Below, piece by piece: positions 1 to 21,434 of a stretch of 22,332 bases of DNA; positions within the stretch are counted from its first letter, which is position 1; each line of letters starts with the position of its first letter. The DNA lies in IMG/VR virus record IMGVR_UViG_3300007539_000257, positions 1 through 22,332 of that record. One strand, given 5' to 3'. The DNA comes from a virus. A program made the translations under genes and the position numbers. The notes beneath the pieces were generated by a model. It made no database searches. It saw only the letters and a program-made list of their open reading frames with translations, and was not told where the DNA came from.

Positions 1-6
1 AGCCAT
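1..6 (-). CDS. Probable first codons of the next gene, cut by the window edge
   Basis: Downstream of the 77-codon gene the minus strand has a purine-rich AAAGGG followed by two closely spaced in-window ATG codons, at 10-8 and 6-4. The ATG at 6-4 lies 7 bases after the GGG, which is a normal Shine-Dalgarno spacing, and would begin Met-Ala. The ATG at 10-8 is only 3 bases away and would begin Met-Asn-Gly. I chose the first of these for its spacing. Only two codons are visible, so nothing can be said about the product. Its tight spacing to the previous stop suggests it belongs to the same late structural operon. Confidence 0.3.
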
Positions 7-13
7 TCATCTA

Positions 14-19
14 CCCTTT
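14..19 (-). promoter_or_regulatory. Shine-Dalgarno-like AAAGGG for the gene leaving the window at the left edge
   Basis: On the minus strand, AAAGGG is followed by ATG codons 3 and 7 bases downstream. It is the clearest ribosome binding site in the window, since the other internal gene starts lack a good one. It sits between the stop of the 77-codon gene (23-21) and the next start. Confidence 0.35.
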
Positions 20-20
20 A

Positions 21-254
21 TTAACTATTTAGTTTCTGCACTATGGTGGATAACATATCTTTGATGTCACCAATATCACTTTTTACATTGTCCAGTTCTT
101 CTTTCATTTTGTCAAATTCTTCACTTTTTTCTTCCATAGTCTTTTTTCTGGATATATAAGACTCATATTCATGTTTATTCTTATTGATAATAGCGGAGGA
201 ATAAGGGTCTCGATAGAGACCCGACATTCCTTCAACTGGAATTAAATTATCCAT
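21..254 (-). CDS. Small conserved phage protein with C-terminal coiled coil (77 aa)
   Basis: This 77-residue protein has an N-terminal segment with the motif LIPVEGMSGLYRDP followed by SAIINKN and a Tyr-rich stretch (EYESYI). Residues about 35-77 are rich in Glu, Lys and Asp with heptad-spaced Met, Leu, Val and Ile, so a coiled coil is likely. From memory, small proteins with the LYRDP...AIIN pattern plus a coiled-coil tail recur in T4-like cyanophages and related marine myoviruses, usually as hypothetical or virion-associated proteins. Its function is unknown to me. The start is fixed by a TAATG overlap with the stop of the DUF4815 gene. There is no Shine-Dalgarno sequence at a useful distance, so translation probably depends on coupling. 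Given its place in the baseplate operon, a small structural or chaperone role is an inference only. Confidence 0.8.
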   Translation of the reverse strand: MDNLIPVEGMSGLYRDPYSSAIINKNKHEYESYISRKKTMEEKSEEFDKMKEELDNVKSDIGDIKDMLSTIVQKLNS

Positions 255-256
255 TA
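252..256 (-). other. TAATG stop/start overlap (translational coupling)
   Basis: The TAA stop of the 2515-codon gene (256-254) shares its last A with the ATG of the 77-codon gene (254-252). The nearest purine-rich stretch upstream (GAGG) is about 18 bases from the ATG, which is too far for a normal ribosome binding site. Termination-reinitiation is therefore the simplest way for the small gene to be translated. Confidence 0.6.
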
Positions 257-3200: not shown

Positions 3201-6200
3201 GCATTAACGTAAGGATTTACGCCATAAACACTAGTTGGTGCGTTATATGGGCCATCTTTATGATTTGGCGAAGCAAGTCTAAAGGCAAAAGATGCTGGAG
3301 ATCCATCGGAAAGTTCCTGTGGAGTATATCCAAATACAGTTTCTCCAGTCTGGAACAAACCAGAATCCATCGCAACTTCGAGAAGTTTTGGAGTTACGTA
3401 ATTTGTAACATCGACACCATCGAAGAATGCATAGAATCTAGTTCTGGGTTTCATTCTTGTAGAAATGAGTTCGATATTTCTCGATCTCATATAGGGAATA
3501 ATATCCCTACTGACAAGTCTATCTCCCAAAGACTCTTGATCTTCTGTTGGAGTTACTTTAAACTGAATTCCTTCTCTGGATTGTTGTGTAGTAATTTCAG
3601 TATCTTGGAATTCTTGTCTACGTGTAACAGTTACGTCATCAATTACAGCTTCACCCGTACCAGCCCATCTACCATTTCTTGCAACAGTAGCATTAAAGTC
3701 AGCAATTCTCTGAATTTGTAGATTACTAATGTCTTGTGGAAGATCTTGAGGTCTCATCTGACCCAAGAACTCTGTGCTGACTTCTGTTCTAAAGGTAACT
3801 CTCTCAGAACTCCAGTTGGTTTCCCAAACACCCCAGTCAACTTCACTCAAACCACTTTGAGTATCGATACCAAGAATAGCGACAGCACTATCATATTCAC
3901 TTGTTCTTCTAATAATATTGGCATCAAGTCTCTTAGTGTCCATCCAGATATCAGAATCTGGATTCAACTTCAAGTCACCCGCATAATAGACGATCAGGAA
4001 TGGGTTGACATTCTCAACTCTAGATGCATAGACCTGAGTGATCATTGGAACTTCTGTGTAATTCAGAGTTACCAATCGTCCGGTTTTCTTGACATTTTGA
4101 CCATCAATGTCACTAACATAATTTAAGTCAAGAGTTGGATTTGCGGTGGTTCCAATTCCAATAACCGATTGAGAACCAATGACCAGATCAATAGCCGTAG
4201 TGTAATGAGATGGTCTTAAATAACCATTCTTTGTATCAATACTTGCAGAGAAGTCTAAGTGTCCAATCTGGTGAGAATCGTGAGACTTAAAGTTGTCAAC
4301 AAAGAATCCAGACTTGAATCTATTCAGACCATTTGCATCAGTAATCTGCAAGTTGGCAGTATCCGATTCAAGAAGTGAAAGTCTGGTATAATATTCTACA
4401 TTTTTAATTCTATCCTCAAGTCTTCCAATATCTGCCATAGTGAAACGTTTATGTTTCGTCTTGGAGATAGTGATATCACTCATACTATAGACATAAGCTC
4501 TAAGATTGATCTTAGCAATCTCTAAAGCGTCTCCAATTGATGGAGGTTCTACTGGGTTATCTGAAGGAACGCCTTGCAGATAGGTAAATTTACCATCTCT
4601 GTCCAAAAACAGTCTGTCTTTTCTTGGTAAGTAATATGTGTAACTTACGATCAGTGATTCATCTGGAACCAAAGGATCTGGAATGCTGCTACCAGAAGAA
4701 GAGAATACTCTTGATCTGAAATCAAATGGTGATAATGTCGATGTAGTATCATATGTACTAACCCTTGGTCTGATATCGATCAGATCACTTGTCAGAGCCT
4801 TATATGATTGATTGATAGGCACCAGTTTTCTGGCATCACTTGAATAACTTGATGCACTAAAGAAGTCTCCATTGTCATCTGAGGTCACAAAGAAGTTCTT
4901 AAATACTACCTTCAATCTATTTGATGGTTCTGGGAAGGTTCTGCCTCTTTCAATGTATGAGAAATCATAATATGTTGGTTTATCATTCACACCCAAAGAA
5001 TATTGATTAGTGACATCTCTATCACCTCTAGTTGTTGCGGCCAGAATTGCAGTAACACCAGAATTTGTACCCTTAACGGTCTCACCCAAAATGAACTGTT
5101 TTTGGTTGAGGGGAACAACACCAACAGTGACAGTATTTGGTTTTTCAACAACCACAGCAACAGCATTACTTTCTAGACCAGTTACTGTTTCGCCTACAAT
5201 TAGATCAGTGTTATTTCCACTAGGTCCGGAGTAACCACCAAGTGTGATGGAGGGCAGATCTGGATCACTGGAATCATTTGACTCATAAACCGCCATCAGT
5301 TGTGCGGCATCAGGAACGTTCAGTGAAATTTTTCTATCTTGAACTCTGGTTCCATAAACTCTACTGTATGTCAGTCCATCATTTAGTGTATTGGTTCCGA
5401 TACCAGATGAGGTAAGTTTGGATCTATCAATGATAATAACATTAGCGTTATTAAGTTTTTTGAGTTTGTTTCTTACAGTACCCTTGAGAACGGTGGCAAA
5501 CAGATTTGCTTTACCACTAGTCTTACTGAGACCGACAAAAGTTACAGTTTTCTTATCAGCAGCCAAAGTCATCTGACTCGAAGTCAGTGGTTCTACAGTG
5601 CCGTCATCATATGAGATAAAGTATCTCTCTTCATCAAATGGTTGGAAGAATAGATTCGAACCAGCATTTGGTGAAGTGAACGAGTTATTAATTACATTAT
5701 TGTCCGAATATTGTTTTCTGAATTGAACTGTAGTGTTGGTTACGTCAAGAGTTTCAAGGTTTTTATGATTGGTGGGAGTTACAAAATTATTCTCACCAAC
5801 ATTAAAACTAGTATTACGAACAATCAAATCATTAACAGAAGTGGATCCTGCAGGAACACCACCTTCACAAACATTAGGAACGGTTGTAATTCCACTTACA
5901 GTTACAAAAGTTCCATCTGTAGCAACTCCTGTAATTCTATTGAAAGTTGGAATTGATTGTCCAGCTCTACTATAACTAATGACACTACCACTTGTTACAA
6001 TACCAGCAAAGTTTGAACCAGCCGCTGTGATGATTCCAGTGTTTCCGCTTGTACTTACTAATTGTAACTCACCAGAAATTAAGTTAGAAAGTCTAGTTCC
6101 ATTGTTTAAAACAATATCTGCTTCGAAAGTAGAAACGCCAACGAAACTACGAAGAGATTTAACGTCATTCAGTCCATAATGAACTGCCTTCGTGATAACT

Positions 6201-7807: not shown

Positions 7808-9379
7808 TTAGAATTCCAATACGATTTTGATGTCTTCCTTTTGCTGTGTGCTACGTGTGACAGATGCCCTGTTGTCCACGTAGATGATGTCACCACTGTA
7901 TTTTTCAACCTCGGGGTTAGCAGCACCCTTAACAAAACTCATTCCGAGATTATATGTCCTATTATTTATTGAGGTTGATACACCCGGAACTGATGATGTT
8001 CCGAAGTTTGTATCAATATTCAAATTAGTCGAACCACCAAAAACAGTGGTTCCTGCACCAGTTGTGGGGTCTGCAGTAAATCTGAACAGTTTATAACCAT
8101 AAGTAGGAGAAGTATTTGCGGTTCCATCGGTATTGAAACCAGCAAGAGTCTTGTCCTGCCAATACTTCAGAACACCAGTTGTTGAATCCCAACTGATAAC
8201 TCTACCAACAGCAGTAGATCCAATACCAATAGTTTGGGTAATCGTTGCGTCAGCTGCAAAAGTTGCAGTTGTAGAACCAGCACCAGTCAACTTAAGTGCA
8301 TAAGTTGCACTAGCCTTAGACAGAGTTAGTTTGTCACTAGATCCAAACGAGAATGGATCTCTTACAATTCCAATCCTTGAGAATTGGTTACCAGTAACAA
8401 AATCTGGATTAGTGGAATCGTTCTCAAGTCTGGAATAAATTAGAGTTCTATATGATCCAAGTTCTCTATAAATGTCAGCGCCGTGACCGTTTTGTGGGGG
8501 AATAATAACGTTGAAAGATGCATCTGTAGAACCACTTGGGTTTGTTAGTCCAACTGAATTCAGATCTACAGTACCAAAAGTATACTCAGAACCACCGTTG
8601 GTAACTTCTACAGAGTCAATTTTACCAGCAGCGTTGACAACTACGGAACATCTTGCACCCTCACCATCACCTTTAATGGGAACGTTGTTATAAGTGGTAG
8701 CAGTACCATAACCAACACCTCTATTGGTAATGGTAACAATTTTTAACTGACCACTGGTAGCAGCATTATTTCTTACCGCAGCCACATCATTATTTGTTGA
8801 CCAATTTTGGGGAAGAGGAATGAAACTTGTAGAATCAAACTTTACCAAATCACTTGGTTTAATAGTGAACAAATACTTCCAGATGTAACCATCACCAGAA
8901 CTACCAGCAGATCTTGGCTCAAGATCGGTAAACAGAGGTTCGTCAAGTGATGGTCTTCCATCTGGGTTTTCTGGATCAGTTCCATTCTGGAGACAAACAT
9001 AAACTCTGTAGTCAGAGTTCATTACATAGAAGTTTGTATCATACAAGTTTGTCGAACTTGTCTGTGGTGACAAGTTTGATCTTGAATAATCGTGGCGATA
9101 CATCTCATACGTTGTACCAGATGTCCAGGTGATTTTCCTAACAACCCGAACGATATCAGCTGCGTTGATTTTCTTCAACGCAATCATTGTATCCCAATAG
9201 TCGTTCTCTTCATTAAACGAGTCTTTTGGAGCAGGGGGAGTAGTGTCCCAGTTTGTGTCATACTCAGTTGCGTTTGGAAGTCCAACCCAAACATAATAAC
9301 TGTTAGTTGTTGACGCAATTCCTGCTACAAAATTCTCAGAATTCAATATACGAAGTTGATCAGTTATAATAGCTGACAT
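7808..9379 (-). CDS. gp8: Baseplate wedge subunit gp8, enlarged by repeat modules (523 aa)
   Basis: The C-terminus (about 495-523, SGDIIYVDNRASVTRSTQQ then EDIKIVLEF) matches the pattern I recall for T4 gp8 (SGEMIYMENRP... with EEINILFTF). GDGYIWKYLFTI at about 160-172 matches T4 GDGYVWEYLFEI, and FSRIGIVRDPFSF near 330 matches the T4 RQISIITNPLE block. T4 gp8 is a 334-residue wedge protein that binds gp7 and gp10 in the baseplate. This copy is about 190 residues longer. The extra length lies in two places: two GG-Y modules at about 213-276, and about 140 residues before the C-terminal block that include a GRVISWDSTTGVLKYWQ unit at about 373-413. The gene lies 28 bases after the gp7-like gene, as in T4 order 6-7-8. 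It has no clear Shine-Dalgarno sequence, and a CATAAATA late-promoter-like box sits 20 bases upstream of the ATG. Confidence 0.92.
   Translation of the reverse strand: MSAIITDQLRILNSENFVAGIASTTNSYYVWVGLPNATEYDTNWDTTPPAPKDSFNEENDYWDTMIALKKINAADIVRVVRKITWTSGTTYEMYRHDYSRSNLSPQTSSTNLYDTNFYVMNSDYRVYVCLQNGTDPENPDGRPSLDEPLFTDLEPRSAGSSGDGYIWKYLFTIKPSDLVKFDSTSFIPLPQNWSTNNDVAAVRNNAATSGQLKIVTITNRGVGYGTATTYNNVPIKGDGEGARCSVVVNAAGKIDSVEVTNGGSEYTFGTVDLNSVGLTNPSGSTDASFNVIIPPQNGHGADIYRELGSYRTLIYSRLENDSTNPDFVTGNQFSRIGIVRDPFSFGSSDKLTLSKASATYALKLTGAGSTTATFAADATITQTIGIGSTAVGRVISWDSTTGVLKYWQDKTLAGFNTDGTANTSPTYGYKLFRFTADPTTGAGTTVFGGSTNLNIDTNFGTSSVPGVSTSINNRTYNLGMSFVKGAANPEVEKYSGDIIYVDNRASVTRSTQQKEDIKIVLEF
8140..8260 (-). 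repeat. GRVISWD-type module inserted in gp8
   Basis: It encodes TITQTIGIGSTAVGRVISWD followed by TTGVLKYWQDKTLAGF. The core GRVISWDSTTGVLKY parallels GTVVSWNEKTKYLKI in the gp7-like protein (about 14350). T4 gp8 as I remember it lacks this segment, so it is read as an insertion. Confidence 0.6.
8555..8755 (-). repeat. Pair of GG-Y modules inserted in gp8
   Basis: Two units are encoded: VTITNRGVGYGTATTYNNVP and VEVTNGGSEYTFGTVDL. They are separated by a GDGEGARCSVVV strand segment. This is the same (V/I)-x-(I/V)-T-N-G-G-x-x-Y pattern found about fifteen times in the gp7-like protein and twice in the DUF4815 protein. At DNA level, CCACCGTTGGTAA at 8592-8604 differs by one base from the 13-mer shared by the other two genes. 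Confidence 0.7.
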
Positions 9380-9407: not shown

Positions 9408-12400
9408 TTAAATGTAGGCCTCTTTAAGGTCTCTAGATCTTACAATCACCGGTCCAGTCTGAATGCCGGTGATACCATCGGTGTTAATTACAGTAAACTG
9501 ACTTGTGTCAGACTTAACGAAGTCATACAATCGACCCCAAGAATATTTTCCGAAGAAAATACTACTTCCAGTGCCAACACCTTGAATTGAATTCACACTT
9601 ACTGTAACTCTAGTCAGAGTAGTTGTTCCCACTCCAACAGCATCACCGGTCACATTTTCTACAGCCATTACTCTGTAGATGTTGTCAATGAACGAGGTTC
9701 CGATACCAACCGTGGTTGTTCCAGAAGCATCACCATATGCGGTGAGTCCATTTCCTGTATATGTATCAGATACGACAAAGTAGTAATCGGTTTTAATTCC
9801 ACTTGACGTAATTGGTGATGACATAATGTCAGAGGATCTCAGTGGTGAGTCCAGAGGAATGAAGAGATCGAATGTCAGACCAGTGGTTGCAATTCCAACA
9901 ACAGAAGTAGTTCCAATGCCAGTGATAATACCAAAGTCACCCTCATACTTAATATTTGTCAAGGTATCACTTGTCTGAGCTTCTGGTTCAATCATTACAA
10001 CTGGTGGATTGGTGTTGGTATATCCAGCGCCAGCACTTGTGATTGATACAGAGGAAACTGTTCCGAGACCAGAGATAACCGCGACACCCGTTGCATTGGT
10101 GTTCATCGTGATTCCAATACCAGAGTAAACAGTTCCAATACCTGCAGTAACACCGATTGAGACTTTAGGTGCGGTAGTGAAACCTGAACCACCATCAGAG
10201 ATGACGATACTTGTGATAGATCCTCCAGCGGAAACTACTGCGGTTGCGGCAGCTCCAGTCCTTTCAGTTCTATCCAAAATCAGAACACTCTGTTTTGCCT
10301 CATCAAGATCATCAATTTGATTAAAGACTGGAACAGCATTGTCAACAAACACTTCGGTTGAAGCAGAACCAACGTTATTAATAATGAAAGCTACTGGTCT
10401 GATTCCAGTTTCAAGTTCAGTTCTATCTTTAGGAACTTCGATGTTTCCAATGATAAGGTCTGCAACCTGTTTCTTCCAAGTTACTGGTCTCAGTACTGTT
10501 CTGTCAGTTGTAATACCGACATCGATGTAGGTATTTGTTGTAACAGTATCAGCAGTTGTGATGCCAGTTACTGTTCTTGCGTTTTGTTGATAACCATCGA
10601 TCAATCCGATATCTGGATATCTGTTGATTGTAAGTTCATCACCAGGTTTTACTGTCTCAAGGACATCTACCTCAACAACATCATTATCCGATCCACGATA
10701 GTAGTAGACTCTCAGTTTATCACCCAGTCTGGGAGCCTCAGAGAAAGTAACTTGAGAACCACCATTTAGAACATAACTCTCTGATGGAATTTGGAGAATA
10801 TCATTCAAGAAGATTATGAGGTTATCTTCAGATTTTATCGGGGAACCTTTAGCGGATCTAATTGTAATTGGAGTTGCAGACGCTCCGATTGTTTTGGTGA
10901 GATTGAATGTCTTTCTATCACCATCAAACAGATTTTCAAAGGTGTTCAGTTTTTCCAATTCACCGAATGTCCAACCAGCAAAACTGTCATTGAAAGTTTC
11001 GGTTACAGTCAGTCTGAATGAAGTGAATGCGACACCAGCGGATGCATCAGTTGGAATACCAGCCTGATTATCTGTAGCGAGTTCTAATACATCACCGATT
11101 CGATAGTTATATCCATAGTTGGTGATGTTGAAACTGATAACACTAGTCGCAGCACCAACACGTACCGAAACTGATGCACCGATACCAGAGTTACTGCCAA
11201 CCAGTCTCATATTCTCATAGTTGAGAGGTGATTCAAACTCAAGAGTTGGTGGTGTAGCAGAACTGAATCCAGAACCACCATTGGTAATTGTTACTGAAGT
11301 TACAAGACCTGCAGTAACGTTTGCGCGACCAATAGTTACGATTCCAGAAGAACCGATTGCCTTAACCAGAATGTTGGTTTGAACACCAACTCTATATCCA
11401 GAACCACTATTTCCAATGGATACGGATTCGATGGTTCCTGCAGCGGAAACGATTGCAGTACCACCTGCAGCTACGAGAGGTTGATAACCGAAGGATGTAG
11501 TTTCGGCAACAGAAACGATAACTCCACCTCTAGGAATAGAGGAAACGTTTACATCATAACTTACGGATGCTCCAGCACCAGTAAACCGAACAGAAGTGAT
11601 GCCCGCAGTTTCAGTAATAATATAATCGTCTGGAGCAATTGGATTCTGGAAGATTTCGTTCAGGAGGATAACACCAGTATTGGTTGAAAAACCAGTTACA
11701 TCTTGACCTTGAGATTTGAGAACAAATGCGGTTGTAACTCCAGTGAATTGATCCTCTACAGTATCAAACACATAGTTGTTTGAATATGTGTCAGTAGATC
11801 CATTTGGAATACCTGTTCTTATGAATGCTCTTGCAGCAAATGTTGATGTGGTGGTAAGTCCTGCAGGGCCTTTAGAACCTTTAGGAGCATCAACAAAGTT
11901 AATCGTGTCTTTTACAATCTGATAATTTCCAACATACTTGATAATTGTCGAACCAGAAGTATGTGCAACCAGATCTGAATTCAATTGAGCTCTCTTGACA
12001 AGAACTCTATTTGTATCACCAATACCAATTGTATCGATCTTCATATACTCATCGTCAATTCTGATAATATCACCAGAGAAGAACGAAGAGATACCTGCCA
12101 TTACAATGAAGTCTGTACCAGTGTCGATGCTGGTTGTAAGACCTGTGTTGATTGGAGACTGAATCAGTGGACTCTGGATGTTATTGTCCAGAGTTACAAT
12201 CATCTTAGAGTTCAGATTTTGTGAGGTGAATGTGTGAGTGGTTCCAACACCAACTGTAGTGATATCAAGAACAGTAGGAACAGTTTGAAGAGCCTCAGTT
12301 GCACTTGCAGCGACTTTGAACTTGTTCTCTGCAATCTTGACCGCATAAACGGTTGATGGAAGTTTATCTGTTGTGCCAAAACCAACAATAGAGGTTGTTC

Positions 12401-15400
12401 CGATACCGATACTCATTGTTGTACCAGCACCAGTTGGTGTGTATGTCAACCTTTCACCAGTATTGAAGAAGTGATTGTTGACAACGAACAGATTATTAGT
12501 TACATCTACAACAGCTGGATCGGAAGAATCAAATACCTTGTGGAATACTGAATCTCCTGCGTGTTTCAGATTAAATGAGAGTGCAACATCATTTTCTGTA
12601 CCGGTGTAGCTGCTATCTTCAGATCTAAGAGATGAATTGGTGAACGTGGTAACTCCGGCAGGGAATCCAGTTTCGGTAAAGTTGTATTGAAGAACTTTAA
12701 CGGTTACGTCAGTGTTGGATGGTGGAGTAAGTCTCAATTCTACATCAGGGCCAGTGGCAGAATAACCAACACCGATTGTTCCAATACCGGATCCGTTAAA
12801 TGTATCAAAATATCCAAATTCACTGAAGTAAACATTAGCGTTATCGTGAATCATTGTGACTTGTGTCACAGCAGATCTATTATTAGTAGTATCCTTAATT
12901 TCTACCAAACAATCTGCTGCCTGATAAGAACCAGATGAGAATCCACTGATTCGTGTAGATTGTGGTGTGGTTGTAGAAGCAATCGAGGTAGTCGTTGTAA
13001 GAATTTCCGTACCACCAATGGTGATACTGCCAATTCCAGAGGCTGAAGAATCGAAAGATGTTTGATGAATTCTCATCGTGACACCAACTCCAGCGACTGG
13101 AGTAAAGTAGACACTCGCAATACCAGATCTTACGTCAGCGCCAAAAGTTCCAAGACCAACGCTTGGTGAGTTGGTGATCGATGTATTCTCATTGATCATT
13201 TGAGCATAATCAAGAAGATATACTTCACTGCCGTCTTGATGAACAACCAACTCATTTACTTGACTTCTTTGATCACCTGTGAGTTCATTTGTGAGAACAA
13301 ACAGTTTTGAAGTTGTAGTGGTTGTTGTTCCAAATCCAACAACTTGTACTGGTGATGGATCGGTAGAACCAATACCTGCAGCACTAGAAATAATCTTGTA
13401 ACCAGATCCAATTTCTGTAGAACCAATACCAGTGGTTGTGTTTGTATTGGTAAAGAGTCTTTGTTGTAAGATTCTCAGTGCATAATTATTGACTTTTGAT
13501 TTAGCTGGTAAGAAACGCAACGATCCACTTGTTCCATTGATACCAAAGTCGAAGGTTCCAAGATCGATTGCAGTTTCTACTCTACCGAAAGGCATTACAT
13601 AACCAACAGAACCATCGTGCAGAAGGTTAACTTGGATAATTTCTTTTTCACCAGAGAAACGAGTATCAAATGCCATTACATAGAACTTACCACCACTCAC
13701 TTCATTAATATCAAACGTTGCGATGTCTGAATATGCTGTAGACCTTGGTTCATCATTGAACTGAGAACTTACACTGTCAATCGACAGGGCTCTATTGGTC
13801 TTGGCTTCAATGTAATCTGTAAGAATTCTTCCATCAAAATTAATTTCATCGGAAGCAAGTTCACCACCGATAATAAGAGAGTTTTCTGATACGAGGTCAA
13901 AATCATATTTCTTATGAAGTGACTCATTTTCACTGATCAGGTCTGCGACAGTTACAACAACATCCGAACCAACTCCAGGTCTTCCAGAAGCTCTGTTCTT
14001 ATCATCTGTAGAAGCAATAGATACCAAACTGATGTCAGCAAAGTTCTTGAATCCGACAACGTGACTAAGACTATTGACTGGATCTCTCCATCTAGTATAT
14101 TGAATTGGACTCTCCAGTGAATATGAGAAAGTCTGATAGTAGTCATTGTCCTGCAGTCTCTGCAGTTCATCATTCAGTTTACCAGTTTCTTTCTGCCATC
14201 CATTTTTGACTTCAGATGTTGGATTTACGCTGAAATATGAATCAAACTTGATTGTTTCTTGAATGATTGCAATAGACTTTGAGGAAAGTCCATTAATAGA
14301 TTCACCAACTGCAAATGAATCATTCGAAAGAATCTTAAGATACTTAGTCTTCTCATTCCAGGAAACAACAGTTCCATTCTTGTCACCAGTGCTTACAGTC
14401 TCTCCTTCACTGAAGTTGTTTGGAACAACTGAAACATCAAATACAGGCAGATCTTCGAAAGGAATAACTCTACCTGAGGAAGATGGGCCACTAAAGATGC
14501 CAGGACTTGTTACTGAAGAATCAAGATTATATGATACGGTTGCATTTCCACCACCAGGGTTAGTGTTAACTCCAGTAATCGTGAAATATCCATACTCGTA
14601 ATCAGATGAGTTGTATCCACTACCAGTGGAACCAATACCAATGTTCTCTACGTAGATTTTTCTACCGAGAGTGAATGGATAGTTAGAATTGGTGAACGTA
14701 CCATCAAGAGTCAGAGTAACAAGTCTATTTGAACTATTGTATGAAAGATCAGTGACTCTTACACCATTACTATTATTAGTTGACACCACTCTTGGATCGG
14801 TGTCATAAAGGTTTTTGGTATTTCTTATGATATTGACTTCTGACACGGAGGTGCCTTGAATCTCAGTGAAGGCTTCAATGTCGGTGTTGACAGTTCCAGT
14901 TACTCTATCAATAACCACAATGGATGGTGGTTGAGTATAATTTTTACCACCAGATGTGATGCCGATATTTGAAATACTGGAGAGTCGGTTCAGTCTTATA
15001 ATTTGTGGTAACTGAACTGATGGTTCGATAGTTTTGTCTGGAGAGTAGTCAAAACCAATATTTTTGATAGTATAGTTTCTAAGTTTGCCGATACTCTCAC
15101 TGGAAAGTTTGATAATACCACCAACACCCTCAGTGGATGCGATAGATGTAACAACAGGAAGGCTCTTATATCCCTTTCCACCAGAGACAATCCTCAAGGC
15201 ATCGATTTCACCAGATACTCTTGTAGAAGTAGTAGAATACTTCAGAGTAGTTGCTTCATTGATGGTATACGAATCTCTTTCTGGTTTAACTGGAATATTG
15301 AATGAGAACGTCGTACTACCAATACCCGAAACAACGAACGATCCATTATATCCACTATCAGATACATTCAATGTCGAATGATTGATTACATCAGTATCGA

Positions 15401-18400
15401 TGACTGGCGTCTTCTTGGTATCTGCAATAATGTCCAGATTAACTGGATTGAGTTTATAGAAAATTTGTTGTGGGCTGTTTTCTGTGAGTGAAAGATTAAC
15501 TACCGCAGTGGTTGTTACACCAACAGTGCCAACGCCAGATACTTGGAATCCAGTCTCTTCTGGATTTGAGTAGTATGGTTTAGTAAAATTAGTATCTCTA
15601 TACAGATTAAAGTCAAATACCTTTCTTCTCTTGCCAGAAACTGTTTGTCCCAGAGATGTATCTGATACCGCAAATCCAACATTGTAACCACGAACAACGT
15701 CAATCTTAGGATTGATCAGACCAACTTCATGATCGGAACCAGTAGAGGTAATTCCAATAACATCGGGAATAATTTTCTGTGATTTGTAGTATGTCTCGGC
15801 AAGTCTAAAGTTATCGTTGTCATCTCTTACAACAAAGTAAATCTCGTTGTTTACCAGTGGTAAAGCTGGATTTGTTGAGGTGTAGAGAAGTTTGTCACCA
15901 GTATTGTAACCGTGATTCGAAATGGTAATGGTATAGGAAGATGTATTGATGCCAGAAGATCCAAATGTCTTTGGATTTACAATGGTTCTCTTAGTAGTAT
16001 CATTATACTTCACATAATATGAAGTAGTGATTCCAGGAGTTAGTGAAACATTGATTCTATCATTTTGAAGTAATCCATGAGCTTCCTTACAAACGATAGT
16101 GCCTACAACCTTCTCTACAAATCCAGTGACCTCAGTCTTTTGTGGTTTAAAGCTATGAACTTCACCGTCACCATATCCAGTAAAGAATAGTTGATATGCC
16201 GTAGATCCAATACCAGTGATGGCTCCAGTGGATCCAATACCTAATGGATTAGTTGAAATACCAAGAAGATCCTTTCCACCGTTGATTGCATAAACAATTG
16301 AATTGTTTGGAAGAGTGAAAGTGGAGATTCCGTTATAAACTTGAATTGAAGTTCCTTCACCATTAGAATATTGAAGTTTCTGACCACTGAGGAATCCGTG
16401 ATCTGGCAAGTAAATATTTTGTGTTGGAATGAACTTGGAGGTCGTGCCACCACCAACTACTCTGTATGAGTATGATACAGTAGAACCAACTCCAACACCT
16501 GTTGTAGACCCTAGGGCAAGGCTCTCAGAGGGGTTAAAGTAGTATGGTACATTTCTCTCAGTAATGACATTGGTGTTAATTCCAATGTTGAAATTGATAG
16601 TTCTGTTCAGAACAGTTACCAGAGAAGTTCCAGTGTGTGCTGTGCCAAGGACACCATCAAATTCTCTCTTAACTCTGAGTTTGTTATTGATTTGATCAAC
16701 ATTCAGAACCAACATTCTTTCTGTTGAAATTCCAATAATATCATTAGGAGCGACGTTTGATGGTTGGAGGTTGCCACTTACAGAGATGTTGGTAACAATA
16801 CCAGTTACAGATGTCGATCCAATACCGGAGTTAAGAATCAGGAATGAAGTATTAAATCCAATGTTGTGTCTTCCATCCAGTTTCTTGAGAGAATCTGTGG
16901 ACAAACCAGAAACTGTGATATTGTCACCAACTGCCAGACCGTGTGGTTGGCTAGAGAATCCAATTACACCACCAGTGCGGTTATTATATTCAAATACAAC
17001 ATTATCAATTCTGACGACGGTAGAAGCGATAGAAACAACATCAACACCACCAACTCTAGAAATCTTAGCATCAAATCCATTACCACCATCAGTATTTCCA
17101 ATAACCAAACTTTCGTTTACACGATACCCAGTACCTGCGTTTTCAATCTGATATCTTTCAACACTACCAGGGGAAGCATAGTTAACTTCCGTCTCTTGTT
17201 TTATGAGTTTTCTACTGTCATAAACACCTTCATATGTAGCTCCTCTGCTGTCCAGTTTGTATGGATACGTGTTTCTCCTGAGTCTTAAATCATTGATATT
17301 AATATCTTGATTGTTTGTCTCAACAAAATTCCATTCATCTGGTTTTGCAGCAAATTTATCACCAATCAGATATGGGAACCTAGGAGAACGGAAGTTCTTG
17401 AAAGTTCCACTCGTTTCGTTTCTATCAGGATCAATAGTTGCAAAGTATGCATAGACACCTTGTGGGTAATCTGGGGTGATGCAGAAACGACCATTATTTC
17501 TATCAAGATCACCGTTTCCAATAAACTCATAGTCTTCAATGAAGAATCCAAGTTCAAAAAGACTCAGTGGTGGGCCATTTTCTCTGGAGGTCTTGAGAAC
17601 ATATCCAGAACGCATTGCGCGAACACTTCCACCATCTTTTCTGTCATATCCATATGGGCCGTAGATTGGGTTGCCATCATATGCCCAACCAATGATTGGT
17701 GAGTGTTTTGTTGATACCTGTTCGGAGTTATTGAGAATTACAAGGTCATCCTGAGCATAGTCAAGAGTTCCATCACTATTCTTCTGTTTGAGTGTTTTTC
17801 TTAACTCTCTGGGAACATAAAGTGAAGTGAACTTGATACCATCATCATTATCACCTCTTGTCAAGAATCCATCATCGGTGGTGAAAATATCTTTATATCT
17901 TTGTACGTTGTCAATGTTCCAACTCTGAACTTTCGTGAGGAACTTAACGCCAGCGCCTGGAATAACTTCCGATACGGAAACCTTAGAAGTTGTATATCCA
18001 ACACCGCCATTTGTGACGGTTACATTGGTAACTCTACCATTACCAATCTGAGAAATAACTTTTGCACCAACACCATCACCAAAGATCGTGAGATCTGGTG
18101 TAGAGGTATATTCGGTTCCAGAATTTGTAATGATTACAGATTGGACTTTGCCATTCTGAACGATGGCTTTGTATTCTGATGAAGAACCAGAAGATACTCT
18201 AACTGTTGGTGGTGTAGTGAAATTAAAGATTGTAGACGAGCCATAACCGATGCCAGACCGCTCTACGTTGATTGAGGTGATACTACCCCGTACAATAGGA
18301 TTAACGATTGCGTGGTAGTTTTCTGGAGATGCGGTATTGATACCGATCTTTCCTTTTACGTTGACTGTAATTGGAGGATAGTTGAATACGTGATCACCAG

Positions 18401-21400
18401 AACCAACGGAGGTCAGTCCAACATACTGTTTTGTCTTATAATTAACATCTGACAGGGTGGTTCCGATTCCTGCAGCAGCCAGTCTGAATCGATTATCATT
18501 GATCTTGATTACATAGTAATCTTGATTGGTATCCAATCCACCAATCTTTACAGTATCATTAGAATATCTAATTAACTCTCCATCACTAAATCCATGACCT
18601 TCATACTCAATATAATCTGAATAAGTGTTGATTCCTGCAGATGGTACGAGTCTTCTCTTGTTCTCATATCCTTCTCCAGGATTATCAATAATAATTTGAC
18701 TGAGAATCTGTTTTTTGTTCAAACTCTCAAATCTTTGAATACCATCAGCAAATGATGTGATATCAAGAAGATTGGATCTTGTCAGAGCATCATTTGAATT
18801 GTTTGCAAGTCTAATTGTTGACGCATCGACTTTTGCAACATAATAAATCGATTCATCAACCAGTCTGGTGCCACCAGAGAGTCCGATAGATCCAGTATTT
18901 CCAAAGGTCTTGTAGATTACAGCTTCACCATCTCTAAACTTGTGGAAAGTAGTGAATCCAATGGTATTATCTAAAAGATTGATTCTTCCACCAGTGGATG
19001 ATGCATCAAAGTCAATAAAATGATCTGCGAGTTTTAGAATAGATCTTGCAATCGCGTTTTTACCATTACCGCCATTGATTTCAATGACAGGAGGCTCGAC
19101 GTAATCAAATCCAGGATCAATAATATCAATTCTTTCAAAAGAACCTCTAACATTAGCTGTTGCAGTAGCACCAGCCCCAGCAGATGTACCAGTTTCAATA
19201 GTTACTGTGGGTGGAGTGATGACATCATATCCAGAACCACCTTCCAAAACATCAATGGACTCAATACCACCAAAGAATACAACATCACCAGACTTATAGT
19301 TGAGAACTTCTGTACCATTAATAAGAAGACCTGTTGTTCCTGGAATGGTCTCATATTCTTTACCATCAAAGTTTGGATTAAGGGAAATTCTCTTTAAAAG
19401 TTTTTGGTGTTCAAGTTTTTTGTTGGCAAGAACTGGAACAGAAATCTTAAATGAACCTGTTCCTGATGCATCAACATAAGTGCCATTTACAAGATCTGGA
19501 AGAGAGTTTGCAAGACGAATCTCATTGGAACTTACACGATTTACGAAATAATTTTTGCCATCTTCAAGATCTCCAAGAAATCCACTGATGATATTAAATG
19601 TTACGACCTCACCAGAATAGAATCCGTGGTCTTTTGCACCAGAGGTAACCTGAATAAGTTGAATAATATCTCCACCAGTTCCACCGGTCCAAGAAATAGA
19701 ACGATCAGATGCGGTGATTGGTTCTTGTCCAAGACTTGGAATTGAAGGAGAAGCTACATAAACGTGAGGATGTGGTGGAACTACATTTGGATTTCCACTA
19801 TCGTGATCATAAGTGTTTTGAACGTCTGTTGTGTACTTGGTAATATTATCGTGAACGGTACTGTTTCCTCTGTTGATTCTTCTTCTTACAAAGGAAACAT
19901 TGGATGGGTCAATACCAAGTAACTCACCAAGAGTAAAACTTTCTCTTCCCGTTATATCAGAGATTTTACCAGTTCCAAGAATATCGGAATCTGAGTTAAG
20001 AACTTCAATGAAATCGCCTGTTACAAAGTCGTGAGGAGAAGCCGTGACTACAGAGAATGCTGACGAAGAAACTCTAGTAAATGAAGTTGGTGTATGTTTT
20101 ACACAAACGTTGTGAATCCAAGAGTTGAACTTAACGTCCTCAAAACTCTTATTGACTCCAAGAGTGCCTACTCTGATTTTATCTCCCTTGTTAAAATAAT
20201 ACGATTTTGATGGAATTTCAAAATTTGAAAGAACACCAGTAATCAGAACTTCAATTTTATTTGTTGCATTACCTGCAGAATATCCATAAGCTACATTTCC
20301 ATATCGAACTTCATCAGAAACCTCATATGCAGAGGTCATCGTGGCCAAACCAACAAACTGGTTAGCGTTCTTACTGGAATACGTTACGATACCAATATTA
20401 GAACCATTTACGAGGTTTAGAGTACCACTTGTTGGGAATCCTACCGTAGAGTCAACTGTGACGACCGTGGCACCGATTGAAACTGCGTTTGTGATTCTTG
20501 TTCTACCAGGAATGATAAACTTCCCTTCGATAGACTCTTTAGAAACACTAACTTGGTAGTAATTCTCTCCACCATACAAGAATTCCTTGACATCGGAGAT
20601 AGCACCAGAACCACCAGTGATGGTGTCATCCTTATCATCTTTATCTTGGAACAAACTTGACCCTTTCAGAGCTCTAGGGTCTCCAGTGATTGCTTTTACA
20701 ACAAAATCTTGTGTGACACTATAGTCTGCGTCCGATGGTCTCAGAAGAAACTGAGATGGCTTGATAATATTGACTTCTTCGCCATATAATGCTCTGAACA
20801 GGATTTTGTAGGATTCTTCAGTACCTTTGGTTTTGTAAAAATCCTTAATTTGACGAATAAATTTAACTTCGTCAACATCACCATCCAGAGTTCTGTTCTG
20901 GAACCCATTTGCGAAGGTTGTTTTGAGTTTATTAAAGAATTCTTGTAAAAACAGGTTGGACAGGTTATAAACCTTGGTTCCACCAGTGTGAGCTGCACCA
21001 ACGGTTGACTTAAATGACAACAGATCTGGTCTAGTACTTCTTTCTAAAGCATCTACACCACTAAATCCACGAATACAACCAGTGAACGACGTTGTTCCAA
21101 TGCCAGTGTAGGTGATGATCTCATCATCGATTTTTAAGAGACCATATTTCTCTGGCCAACCTTTTGTCGTCTCGACGTAGATTGTAGTAGAGTATGATTG
21201 AGCGTCTGTAGACAGGCCAGTGTACTCTGTAAGCGCTGCCCCGACGTATGTCTGTAGTTTTGTATATCTATCAATATTTTCACCAATGTCAACCGTACCA
21301 CCCTGATATTCTTGTGAAACATAATATTGTTTCATAAACTCCACAAAAAGTGGATTGTCAGCTTGAACAAACTCAGGTAACTGATTCTCGATTACCTGAC

Positions 21401-21434
21401 TGATTTTGACTCTTTGAATAGAAGTGTCGATCAT
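9408..21434 (-). CDS. gp7: Giant gp7-like baseplate wedge protein with about 3,700 residues of inserted and appended modules (4008 aa)
   Basis: The gene sits between genes 6 and 8 exactly where T4 has gene 7. Residues 1-30 (LPEFVQADNPLFVEFMKQYY), 199-223 (FYKTKGTEESYKILF, then ALYGEEVNI) and 2429-2470 (DNDYYQTFSY, RWRDPVNSLSHVVGF, FADISLV) resemble successive parts of the C-terminal third of T4 gp7 as I remember it (FYSTKGIEASYKFLF; RW-x-VHPVGF-FIAITLL). T4 gp7 is 1032 aa and holds the wedge together with gp6 and gp8. Between residues 223 and 2429 lie HG-type, GG-Y and IDDEI modules and a YHYH-like domain. After 2470 come three tandem copies of a roughly 100-residue domain and more modules. 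Cysteines are very rare (about five). The start ATG follows gene 6 by 19 bases, with a weak GGGA 9 bases upstream. Without the gp7 match this would be an unnamed virion structural protein. Confidence 0.75.
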   Translation of the reverse strand: MIDTSIQRVKISQVIENQLPEFVQADNPLFVEFMKQYYVSQEYQGGTVDIGENIDRYTKLQTYVGAALTEYTGLSTDAQSYSTTIYVETTKGWPEKYGLLKIDDEIITYTGIGTTSFTGCIRGFSGVDALERSTRPDLLSFKSTVGAAHTGGTKVYNLSNLFLQEFFNKLKTTFANGFQNRTLDGDVDEVKFIRQIKDFYKTKGTEESYKILFRALYGEEVNIIKPSQFLLRPSDADYSVTQDFVVKAITGDPRALKGSSLFQDKDDKDDTITGGSGAISDVKEFLYGGENYYQVSVSKESIEGKFIIPGRTRITNAVSIGATVVTVDSTVGFPTSGTLNLVNGSNIGIVTYSSKNANQFVGLATMTSAYEVSDEVRYGNVAYGYSAGNATNKIEVLITGVLSNFEIPSKSYYFNKGDKIRVGTLGVNKSFEDVKFNSWIHNVCVKHTPTSFTRVSSSAFSVVTASPHDFVTGDFIEVLNSDSDILGTGKISDITGRESFTLGELLGIDPSNVSFVRRRINRGNSTVHDNITKYTTDVQNTYDHDSGNPNVVPPHPHVYVASPSIPSLGQEPITASDRSISWTGGTGGDIIQLIQVTSGAKDHGFYSGEVVTFNIISGFLGDLEDGKNYFVNRVSSNEIRLANSLPDLVNGTYVDASGTGSFKISVPVLANKKLEHQKLLKRISLNPNFDGKEYETIPGTTGLLINGTEVLNYKSGDVVFFGGIESIDVLEGGSGYDVITPPTVTIETGTSAGAGATATANVRGSFERIDIIDPGFDYVEPPVIEINGGNGKNAIARSILKLADHFIDFDASSTGGRINLLDNTIGFTTFHKFRDGEAVIYKTFGNTGSIGLSGGTRLVDESIYYVAKVDASTIRLANNSNDALTRSNLLDITSFADGIQRFESLNKKQILSQIIIDNPGEGYENKRRLVPSAGINTYSDYIEYEGHGFSDGELIRYSNDTVKIGGLDTNQDYYVIKINDNRFRLAAAGIGTTLSDVNYKTKQYVGLTSVGSGDHVFNYPPITVNVKGKIGINTASPENYHAIVNPIVRGSITSINVERSGIGYGSSTIFNFTTPPTVRVSSGSSSEYKAIVQNGKVQSVIITNSGTEYTSTPDLTIFGDGVGAKVISQIGNGRVTNVTVTNGGVGYTTSKVSVSEVIPGAGVKFLTKVQSWNIDNVQRYKDIFTTDDGFLTRGDNDDGIKFTSLYVPRELRKTLKQKNSDGTLDYAQDDLVILNNSEQVSTKHSPIIGWAYDGNPIYGPYGYDRKDGGSVRAMRSGYVLKTSRENGPPLSLFELGFFIEDYEFIGNGDLDRNNGRFCITPDYPQGVYAYFATIDPDRNETSGTFKNFRSPRFPYLIGDKFAAKPDEWNFVETNNQDININDLRLRRNTYPYKLDSRGATYEGVYDSRKLIKQETEVNYASPGSVERYQIENAGTGYRVNESLVIGNTDGGNGFDAKISRVGGVDVVSIASTVVRIDNVVFEYNNRTGGVIGFSSQPHGLAVGDNITVSGLSTDSLKKLDGRHNIGFNTSFLILNSGIGSTSVTGIVTNISVSGNLQPSNVAPNDIIGISTERMLVLNVDQINNKLRVKREFDGVLGTAHTGTSLVTVLNRTINFNIGINTNVITERNVPYYFNPSESLALGSTTGVGVGSTVSYSYRVVGGGTTSKFIPTQNIYLPDHGFLSGQKLQYSNGEGTSIQVYNGISTFTLPNNSIVYAINGGKDLLGISTNPLGIGSTGAITGIGSTAYQLFFTGYGDGEVHSFKPQKTEVTGFVEKVVGTIVCKEAHGLLQNDRINVSLTPGITTSYYVKYNDTTKRTIVNPKTFGSSGINTSSYTITISNHGYNTGDKLLYTSTNPALPLVNNEIYFVVRDDNDNFRLAETYYKSQKIIPDVIGITSTGSDHEVGLINPKIDVVRGYNVGFAVSDTSLGQTVSGKRRKVFDFNLYRDTNFTKPYYSNPEETGFQVSGVGTVGVTTTAVVNLSLTENSPQQIFYKLNPVNLDIIADTKKTPVIDTDVINHSTLNVSDSGYNGSFVVSGIGSTTFSFNIPVKPERDSYTINEATTLKYSTTSTRVSGEIDALRIVSGGKGYKSLPVVTSIASTEGVGGIIKLSSESIGKLRNYTIKNIGFDYSPDKTIEPSVQLPQIIRLNRLSSISNIGITSGGKNYTQPPSIVVIDRVTGTVNTDIEAFTEIQGTSVSEVNIIRNTKNLYDTDPRVVSTNNSNGVRVTDLSYNSSNRLVTLTLDGTFTNSNYPFTLGRKIYVENIGIGSTGSGYNSSDYEYGYFTITGVNTNPGGGNATVSYNLDSSVTSPGIFSGPSSSGRVIPFEDLPVFDVSVVPNNFSEGETVSTGDKNGTVVSWNEKTKYLKILSNDSFAVGESINGLSSKSIAIIQETIKFDSYFSVNPTSEVKNGWQKETGKLNDELQRLQDNDYYQTFSYSLESPIQYTRWRDPVNSLSHVVGFKNFADISLVSIASTDDKNRASGRPGVGSDVVVTVADLISENESLHKKYDFDLVSENSLIIGGELASDEINFDGRILTDYIEAKTNRALSIDSVSSQFNDEPRSTAYSDIATFDINEVSGGKFYVMAFDTRFSGEKEIIQVNLLHDGSVGYVMPFGRVETAIDLGTFDFGINGTSGSLRFLPAKSKVNNYALRILQQRLFTNTNTTTGIGSTEIGSGYKIISSAAGIGSTDPSPVQVVGFGTTTTTTSKLFVLTNELTGDQRSQVNELVVHQDGSEVYLLDYAQMINENTSITNSPSVGLGTFGADVRSGIASVYFTPVAGVGVTMRIHQTSFDSSASGIGSITIGGTEILTTTTSIASTTTPQSTRISGFSSGSYQAADCLVEIKDTTNNRSAVTQVTMIHDNANVYFSEFGYFDTFNGSGIGTIGVGYSATGPDVELRLTPPSNTDVTVKVLQYNFTETGFPAGVTTFTNSSLRSEDSSYTGTENDVALSFNLKHAGDSVFHKVFDSSDPAVVDVTNNLFVVNNHFFNTGERLTYTPTGAGTTMSIGIGTTSIVGFGTTDKLPSTVYAVKIAENKFKVAASATEALQTVPTVLDITTVGVGTTHTFTSQNLNSKMIVTLDNNIQSPLIQSPINTGLTTSIDTGTDFIVMAGISSFFSGDIIRIDDEYMKIDTIGIGDTNRVLVKRAQLNSDLVAHTSGSTIIKYVGNYQIVKDTINFVDAPKGSKGPAGLTTTSTFAARAFIRTGIPNGSTDTYSNNYVFDTVEDQFTGVTTAFVLKSQGQDVTGFSTNTGVILLNEIFQNPIAPDDYIITETAGITSVRFTGAGASVSYDVNVSSIPRGGVIVSVAETTSFGYQPLVAAGGTAIVSAAGTIESVSIGNSGSGYRVGVQTNILVKAIGSSGIVTIGRANVTAGLVTSVTITNGGSGFSSATPPTLEFESPLNYENMRLVGSNSGIGASVSVRVGAATSVISFNITNYGYNYRIGDVLELATDNQAGIPTDASAGVAFTSFRLTVTETFNDSFAGWTFGELEKLNTFENLFDGDRKTFNLTKTIGASATPITIRSAKGSPIKSEDNLIIFLNDILQIPSESYVLNGGSQVTFSEAPRLGDKLRVYYYRGSDNDVVEVDVLETVKPGDELTINRYPDIGLIDGYQQNARTVTGITTADTVTTNTYIDVGITTDRTVLRPVTWKKQVADLIIGNIEVPKDRTELETGIRPVAFIINNVGSASTEVFVDNAVPVFNQIDDLDEAKQSVLILDRTERTGAAATAVVSAGGSITSIVISDGGSGFTTAPKVSIGVTAGIGTVYSGIGITMNTNATGVAVISGLGTVSSVSITSAGAGYTNTNPPVVMIEPEAQTSDTLTNIKYEGDFGIITGIGTTSVVGIATTGLTFDLFIPLDSPLRSSDIMSSPITSSGIKTDYYFVVSDTYTGNGLTAYGDASGTTTVGIGTSFIDNIYRVMAVENVTGDAVGVGTTTLTRVTVSVNSIQGVGTGSSIFFGKYSWGRLYDFVKSDTSQFTVINTDGITGIQTGPVIVRSRDLKEAYI
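10680..11770 (-). repeat. Two related LN-x-I-x-Q-x-P hairpin modules
   Basis: Copy 1 (about 11530-11770) encodes NTGVILLNEIFQNPIAPDDY and then SVRFTGAGASVSY. Copy 2 (about 10680-10920) encodes NLIIFLNDILQIPSESYVL and then VTFSEAPRLGDKLRVYYYRG. Both share a strand, the I-x-(F/L)-L-N-(D/E)-I-(F/L)-Q-x-P core, a Tyr, and a VxF strand. Copy 1 is followed by a distinctive IPRGGVIVSV segment. I recall similar hairpin units in other phage fibre and baseplate proteins, but cannot name the family. Confidence 0.55.
12670..13710 (-). repeat. Three tandem copies of a roughly 100-residue domain in the gp7-like protein
   Basis: The copies are centred on VNLLHDGSVGYVMPFGRVET (about 13600), ELVVHQDGSEVYLLDYAQMI (about 13230) and VTMIHDNANVYFSEFGYFDT (about 12830). 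Each has an upstream strand pair (KFYVMAFDT, KLFVLTNE, DCLVEIKD), a downstream Gly-rich turn, and a closing strand that ends in YALRILQQ, VTMRIHQTSF or VTVKVLQYNF. This matches residues about 2575-2921. The arrangement looks like a beta-sandwich repeated in series. No known family is claimed. Confidence 0.7.
14020..14150 (-). other. Second gp7-core segment (residues 2429-2470)
   Basis: It encodes DNDYYQTFSYSLESPIQYT, then RWRDPVNSLSHVVGF and FADISLV. As recalled, T4 gp7 has a block with SYYVMKIKSNLPSSRW followed by a VHPVGFGFIAITLL segment, which aligns without large gaps. A GETV-type unit at 14260-14415 precedes it, and T4 gp7 also has a comparable short strand region before this block. The match was made by eye and from memory. 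Confidence 0.55.
17340..17717 (-). other. YHYH-like domain inside the gp7-like protein (residues about 1240-1365)
   Basis: The protein reads GWAYDGNPIYGPYGY at residues 1249-1263, then LDRNNGRFCITPDYPQGVYA, and later PRFPYLIGDKF. This is the layout of the YHYH domain family (GxAxDGfPIYGPYGY, then LDECNG, then YHYH, then yPY-iG). At the signature position (residues 1328-1331, bases 17442-17453) the sequence is Tyr-Ala-Tyr-Phe instead of Tyr-His-Tyr-His. The LDECNG position reads LDRNNG. The domain is therefore recognisable but lacks its name-giving histidines. Confidence 0.7.
20766..20840 (-). other. First gp7-core segment (residues 199-223)
   Basis: The segment FYKTKGTEESYKILFRALYG followed by EEVNI aligns with the T4 gp7 block recalled as FYSTKGIEASYKFLFKVLYN followed by EEVEI. 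Upstream, residues about 15-45 resemble the gp7 helix region before it. An IDDEIITYTGIGTT module (about 21050-21150) lies between them. This block is the main evidence that the giant gene is a gene 7 relative, together with its position. Confidence 0.7.

Follow-up and report, generated by a model that had tools for sequence, protein, structure and literature searches.

A giant cyanophage-type gp7 whose T4-like C-terminal core is very probably split by a large modular insertion

The closest structurally described relative of the protein analysed here is gp7 of phage T4 (PDB 5iv5 and 5hx2). In that protein ~630 N-terminal residues precede a helical domain (placed by Pfam, as Gp7_helical, at residues 643–689), the KGT helices (residues 726–762), domain V (residues 766–861), a short segment after domain V and a C-terminal domain VI, with ~100 residues separating the KGT helices from the short segment. 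Short gp7-like wedge proteins have also been reported: according to the available portions of the sources, XM1 gp17 and A-1(L) gp32 hold the wedge position and have loops that bear spikes or contact fibres. XM1 gp17, which we liken to the present protein from its published description, comprises 242 residues, with spike-binding parts at 80–106 and 201–242 (in the part of the source available).

In cyanophages with giant gp7s the protein is already known by annotation. In the accessible sections of the corresponding reports, a 6,619-residue ‘baseplate wedge initiator’ (S-SZBM1_208, gp7 by name) is recorded in virions with 71 peptides (13.5%), in a table that also holds a 615-residue ‘baseplate wedge initiator’ (S-SZBM1_205), and S-CREM2 ORF122 (1,937 residues by its coordinates, gp7 by its place) is recorded by virion mass spectrometry with 91 unique peptides. 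Comparative studies (again as represented by the portions available) differ: a 2010 comparison counts gp7 as one of the large and divergent members of the non-cyanophage core, a 2017 paper tabulates gp7 across T4-like phages at about 4–11% alignment identity, and a 2020 paper (PMC7029224) states that gp7 is absent and appears to be substituted by VrlC. No description of a split gp7 core was found in the literature searched, which was covered in part.

The DNA analysed here (‘the window’) is a whole virus record of 22,332 bases. Its largest ORF (Table 1) encodes 4,008 residues without an internal stop and, as the initial annotation had proposed, sits between genes 6 and 8, its neighbours matching the gp6 and gp8 families. 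The gp6 stop and the start of the ORF are separated by 19 bases, and gp8 is the next gene after it. A fourth protein on the minus strand (2,515 residues, with matches of its own to phrog_358 and DUF4815) is called VrlC because it follows gp8, as VrlC does in S-SM2. Residues 1–811 of the large protein match 476 phage records, all at <60% identity; the phage relatives are Kyanoviridae, and the nearest named ones are cyanophage genes, many of them annotated as gp7 or baseplate wedge initiator. The protein is one more member of the cyanophage gp7 family (phrog_2885), with 35.6, 38.0 and 31.6% identity over residues 1–811 to the gp7s of S-SM2, Bellamy and P-SSM2, which have the same architecture (spacers of 2,222, 2,232 and 2,233 residues, respectively). 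A search for DNA-level tandem repeats in the window found none. The gp8 of the window also holds a module resembling domain I of the sheath protein gp18, and the gp8 proteins of two relatives are 743 and 815 residues long, versus 334 in T4.

Table 1. Features of the window and of its gp7 (E-values of the N, C and module profiles at 1,000 sequences)
Feature	Residues	Position	Strand	Evidence
gp6, C-terminal part, cut by contig end		21454..22332	-	phrog_219 E 2.7e-48
gp7 (baseplate wedge initiator), 4,008 aa	1-4008	9408..21434	-	phrog_2885 baseplate wedge subunit, best stretch 4-3364, 3373 bits; between gp6 and gp8
Helical (core-bundle) domain, likely counterpart of T4 Gp7_helical	8-65	21240..21413	-	N profile E 1.1e-7
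First growth site (L1), with small beta module at ~72-120	66-160	20955..21239	-	H1-to-K distance 183 vs median 86; ~72-120 similar to 311-364
KGT helices (trifurcation region)	161-238	20721..20954	-	N profile E 3.2e-18
Domain V-like beta barrel, first part	239-308	20511..20720	-	model 234-408 on gp7 761-849; tile 211-300
Small beta module, apparently inserted in barrel	309-379	20298..20510	-	tail tube/tailspike fold matches
Barrel last strand (tentative)	380-408	20211..20297	-	low-confidence model; pLDDT 71-73 at 381-400, 35 at 401-410
Main modular insertion (L2), limits approximate	~409-2405	14220..20210	-	spacing; modules
GSGY (gp18 domain I-like) module	721-795	19050..19274	-	module profile E 3.5e-4
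HGF-type module	930-1023	18366..18647	-	tile 931-1020 matches 1826-1903, E 6.9e-25 (one-sequence search)
GSGY modules	1052-1170	17925..18281	-	1052-1130 E 1.5e-5; 1124-1170 E 0.063
YHYH-family domain, partial profile, no YHYH motif	1239-1336	17427..17720	-	Pfam E 2.5e-24
HGF-type module	1822-1903	15726..15971	-	similarity to tile 931-1020
C segment, counterpart of T4 863-897	2426-2473	14016..14159	-	C profile E 1.0e-12; hhalign T4 863-889, weak
C-terminal extension with modules	2474-4008	9408..14015	-	spacing; modules
Three related repeats in extension	2567-2940	12615..13736	-	tile 2671-2760 matches 2803-2885, E 5.9e-23
GSGY modules in extension	3334-3460	11055..11435	-	3334-3430 E 4.6e-6; 3433-3460 E 0.063
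gp8, 523 aa, one GSGY module at 213-292		7808..9379	-	Pfam Phage-Gp8 E 5.8e-12; phrog_438; module E 7.7e-5

The initial annotation held that three segments of the protein (residues ~15–45, ~199–223 and ~2429–2470) correspond to consecutive blocks of the C-terminal third of T4 gp7, and proposed a profile comparison as a check. We scanned 132 tiles covering all 4,008 residues against a profile of four T4-type gp7 proteins, using hhalign. The three highest-ranking tiles all contained residues ~191–227 and aligned to T4 726–762 (97.1, 97.0 and 73.8% probability), indicating that the KGT helix segment is present; the fourth, tile 211–300, aligned to T4 746–813 (33.5%). Ranks five and six were the tiles containing residues ~2437–2463, which aligned to T4 863–889 (13.9 and 12.3%, E 0.002), above a background in which the next tile reached 3.1% and the median tile 0.1%. 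The middle and last segments were thus both found as the best tiles and in order, the former strongly and the latter weakly, while the segment at 15–45 did not stand out in direct comparison with T4 and was recovered only through other gp7 proteins. Other direct searches matched weakly or not at all: the window protein alone matched T4-type gp7 weakly in the PDB (E 0.024, residues 193–224 on 728–759), Pfam Baseplate_wedge fell just under its cut-off (25.8 versus 27 bits), and Gp7_helical, Gp7_5th and Gp7_6th were listed neither for the window protein at E ≤ 1 nor for six relatives at E ≤ 0.01. Compared pairwise with T4 gp7, the last segment gave 33% identity with an E-value of 0.022 (phmmer i-Evalue 0.011), too faint a match to stand by itself, and we therefore sought a bridging family.

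Such a family was gathered by searching viral contigs with the gp7 proteins of phages Yut3 (503 residues) and BUCT-ZZ01 (607 residues). These ‘minimal’ gp7s of other phages (466–1,446 residues) have the same core and gene context as the window protein, but their core segments lie only 179–272 residues apart, around approximately one gp18 domain I-like module. An alignment of 46 of them displayed invariant residues at both ends. The flanks of six gp7s, minimal except for one of middle size, belonged to the gp6 family phrog_219 upstream (5 of 5 tested) and to the gp8 family phrog_438 downstream (5 of 5). From 40 minimal gp7-like sequences, comprising neither T4 nor any of the giant proteins, we built profiles (N, K, C and H1 among them), which found both ends of the core in the window protein (Table 1), in T4 gp7 (N, E 2.5e-10; C, E 0.016) and in nine further named non-T4 gp7s that were not among the seeds. 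The same C profile that marks the last segment of the window protein so clearly gave E-values from 0.016 to 5.8e-4 in four T4-type proteins (5.8e-4 to 1.3e-3 in the three other than T4).

The bridge also bears on the N-terminal end. Profile H1 matched residues 8–38 of the window protein (E 5.5e-10, at 1,000 sequences) and listed none of the four T4-types, while profile N aligned from its fourth position to T4 644–759 and from its fifth to K566 712–826; in CC2 and Tauntaun only the KGT part was aligned. In the opposite direction, residues 626–756 of the T4 profile phrog_964 aligned to a minimal gp7. The helical domain of the window protein, tied to T4 through this bridging profile, is accordingly described here as a likely counterpart. 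We also agree with the suggestion that the N-terminal two thirds of T4 gp7 are absent: the equivalent of T4 residues 1–~630 is missing, and the ORF begins 7 residues before the N-profile match. A query with T4 1–630 matched 1,431 phage records, and Synechococcus was not among the commonest 10 of 37 organism words. A T4-type N-terminal part may be encoded as a separate gene outside the 22-kb record. Aeromonas phage CC2 contains two ORFs between gp6 and gp8 (1249–2010 and 2064–4751), and the N-terminal part of its T4-type gp7 may be a separate protein.

Family profiles were also compared with the PDB. Profile A1 (built from 46 of 61 listed rows, rows having been removed by hand) matched T4-type gp7 (9f4a) with an E-value of 3.2e-13 in two ordered stretches, 733–834 and 865–908, the last of which taken alone has an i-Evalue of 0.88 (9f4a) or 23 (5hx2). 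Profile A2 (47 sequences; from 46 of 59 relatives, rows removed by hand and relatives cut at 840 residues) matched T4 gp7 with an E-value of 4.1e-6. Domain V is clear in the minimal gp7s. A predicted model of one of them (pLDDT 73.2, pTM 0.49) had as its top three PDB matches T4-type gp7s (E 9.6e-11, 2.0e-8 and 7.4e-7), and its best matches in a viral structure library were baseplate wedge subunits of uncultured phages. The beta part of this model is good (block means of 90–97 at residues 161–300), both ends are poor or middling, and the last segment has a pLDDT of 52–67, so that the model supports homology more than packing. Its residues 17–381 lie on gp7 632–898 with a whole-match rmsd of ~19 Å, and the match therefore says nothing about domain placement or packing.

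The model of the window protein is of low confidence (pLDDT 53.9, pTM 0.25). Gp7 was its first Foldseek match (E 4.8e-6), to which we give little weight because of that low confidence, and appeared at ranks 9 and 10 in VIA. Residues 234–408 of this low-confidence model superimpose on gp7 761–849 (Z 8.4–8.5, rmsd 3.6–3.9 over 87–88 residues). Residues 308–380 match a phage tail tube (9n71, Z 10.3) and residues 309–380 a tailspike (4ru4, Z 8.6); domain V of the window protein may itself be interrupted by a beta module in this region. The likeness to T4 gp7 comprises gene position and the KGT helices and post-domain V segment in the same order, with the likeness in the helical domain and domain V coming from indirect or low-confidence evidence.

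The distance between the KGT helices and the last segment, estimated initially as ~100 residues in T4 and ~2,200 in the window, measures 107 (758 to 865) and 2,188, and 1,535 residues (rather than ~1,540) follow the last segment. Across named phages the same spacer is 202, 263, 334, 526 or 805 residues and then 2,188–2,243 or 2,722–2,723; in 98 complete viral ORFs (a count that includes near-identical ORFs) it is 179–272 (50 ORFs), 340–583 (38) or 1,994–2,006 (10). Overall, the spacers fall into classes of 107 (T4), 179–272, 334–805 and 1,994–2,723 residues. The split had been put forward as a new architecture for the wedge; it is instead found in each of the six giant gp7s from named cyanophages that we measured (spacers of 2,222–2,723), and those of S-SM2, P-SSM2, S-RIM8 and Bellamy are already annotated as gp7 or baseplate wedge initiator. 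The lake Synechococcus phage BUCT-ZZ01 is an exception, with the minimal form and a spacer of 202.

Nor has a single loop grown, as had been supposed. Relative to the minimal gp7s the window protein has three growth sites: before the KGT helices (183 versus 86 residues), in or after domain V (2,188 versus 179–272) and at the C-terminal end, where 1,535 residues lie beyond the last segment. The distance from the helical domain to the KGT helices is 78–81 residues in four named phages (median 86 in 50 complete minimal ORFs), 183–189 in the window protein, HTVC008M and four giants, and 686 in syn9 and S-RIM8, and the C-terminal extension ranges in length from 16 to 2,888 residues. In a tree of the core (77 dereplicated rows of 142, T4-types left out; 266 columns, unrooted and with many weak branches) a single branch separates the 20 giants from all other rows (support 99/98; seen in 200 of 200 bootstrap trees), and the proteins with mid-sized spacers do not form one group (7 changes).

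The linker had been described as holding a YHYH-like domain and many repeat modules. Both are found, but the Y-H-Y-H motif is absent (from all 16 gp7s searched, including that of the window), the YHYH-family match (PF14240) covers only profile positions 87–184 of 193, and repeats are found beyond the last segment as well. Modules of the HGF type occur in about six copies (one of them partial), most of them in the main insertion. In the minimal gp7s a module region stands between domain V and the last segment, and their spacer module resembles T4 gp18 domain I both by profile (E 1.4e-6) and by predicted fold (Z 8.1, rmsd 2.6 over 76 residues); T4 gp7 has no such module that we could see at the corresponding place. 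Pfam Gp18_dom_I (PF22639) was shown by two of seven proteins, below cut-off in both. The GSGY modules of the window protein are linked to the fold of gp18 98–188 through the sequence profile of the minimal module, and residues 1048–1170 searched alone gave no convincing sequence match in the PDB (best E 0.3). Domain I of gp18 is the outward-protruding part of the sheath protein and binds retracted fibres, according to the portion of the source available. A DG.PIYG motif is present in one copy, at a similar place, in all seven giants checked (that of the window included).

Conservation among close relatives was measured over 66 of 89 ORFs, with 17–51 per 60-residue block. Identity per block is 0.74–0.84 in residues 1–300, 0.67–0.68 in the last segment and 0.49–0.78 in the insert, where the share of gaps is 0.06 at most. 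The insert is thus slightly less conserved than the core and nearly free of gaps, a pattern more in keeping with an outer structural layer than with a receptor-binding tip that changes quickly. The best-conserved block of all (identity 0.89) is residues 3301–3360 of the C-terminal extension (window 11175–11534), and residues 3361–3420 (0.84) equal the best block of the core region.

We conclude that the window protein is very probably a gp7 whose core, equivalent to the last third of T4 gp7, is interrupted by a very large insertion made of modules. What the data show directly is the homology and order of the core segments, the series of spacings and the gene context. The ancestral part of the protein would consist of the helical domain, the KGT helices, the domain V barrel and the short segment after the barrel, and by analogy with T4 the helical domain and KGT helices would link a pair of gp6 chains within the wedge. 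Growth would have come from small beta modules (some of the gp18 domain I fold) gained within or behind domain V, ahead of the KGT helices and at the C-terminal end; the spacer would have gone from about one module in the minimal gp7s to about 2,000–2,700 residues in the giant cyanophage group. The chain would then exit the wedge core, form a row of modules and re-enter to complete the core by packing of its two segments, which might make this part of the wedge, as initially suggested, the root of a very large appendage. The modules might best be explained as an outer layer of the baseplate that holds neighbouring baseplate or fibre proteins, as the N-terminal domains of T4 gp7 do, although we regard this role as roughly an even call. 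A stronger form of the idea is more doubtful: we think it rather unlikely that six giant gp7 chains, each passing out of the wedge core and back into it, alone build that layer, with the N-terminal domains of T4 gp7 and much of the gp9–gp12 rim replaced through amplification of small beta modules (including a sheath-type decoration module) chiefly at a single loop.

A different role, leaving the homology unaffected, would be that of a receptor-binding, fibre-like arm rooted in the wedge, formed by the insert and C-terminal extension and with the YHYH-family domain as its tip. The tail-tube-like or tailspike-like module near the start of the insert would suit such an arm, as would the annotation of the syn9 homologue as ‘putative fiber’, the link drawn between YHYH domains in these operons and host recognition (PMC7029224, in the part available) and the location of the most variable blocks (residues 421–540, identity 0.49–0.52) inside the insert. 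Block identities among the 66 relatives, however, reveal no hypervariable tip, the insert is nearly gap-free as noted above, and the YHYH-family part, lacking its motif, is among the better-kept blocks of the insert (0.76–0.78). We consider a receptor-binding arm possible but unlikely.

Two further alternatives would deny the split itself. The weak direct match of the last segment to T4 raises the question of whether it is due to chance or convergence, with only the N-terminal ~400 residues being gp7 and the remainder an unrelated, fused structural protein. Among 929 proteins (the 40 seeds and near-identical ORFs included), profile K exceeded 20 bits in 208, profile C exceeded 18 bits in 181 and both did so in 142, and the order of the segments was violated in none of the 142, even at spacings of 179–272. 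The best scores among 1,858 shuffled or reversed decoys were 9.6 bits for K and 5.2 bits for C. The 39 ORFs with C only are cut at the 5′ end in 38 cases, and the remaining one (L103) lies next to a K-only ORF; of 66 K-only proteins eight are complete, comprising four T4-types below the C threshold and four viral ORFs (L103, L175, L274 and L279) that are possibly frame-shifted. In 537 frames from 12 stretches of 11 named phages, one frame per phage carries N, K and C (in all 11 cases at the gp7 place), and C exceeds 3 bits only in those 11 gp7s. Profile A1, moreover, places the last segment on gp7 865–908, after the KGT part. A chance match is thus very unlikely. The published view that cyano- and pelagimyophages lack gp7 and use VrlC in its place (PMC7029224, as given in the part available) is harder still to reconcile with these data, and we do not find it supported for these phages: in both HTVC008M and S-SM2 the gene lying between gp6 and gp8 encodes the gp7 core (1,016 residues in HTVC008M), with VrlC encoded separately beyond gp8, and gp059, another HTVC008M gene that bears the name baseplate wedge initiator, does not match the core models. 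We judge it extremely improbable that gp7 is missing. The split core explains the reports of low or absent similarity, since comparison over the full length hides the core.

A gp7 core divided by modular growth would show how a conserved hub protein can turn into a very large component of the virion within one chain, with living intermediates. It argues against the published loss of gp7 in pelagi- and cyanomyophages, accounts for labels that disagree between family databases and points to where in a cyanophage baseplate map to look. As for such labels, HTVC008M gp055 (33435–36485) is annotated as ‘head closure Hc2’ yet carries the gp7 core; two later genes of that phage are named baseplate wedge initiator, gp059 and gp062 (the latter considered over its first 109 codons only). 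The PHROG families that contain the gp7 core are labelled variously as connector, head and packaging, unknown or tail.
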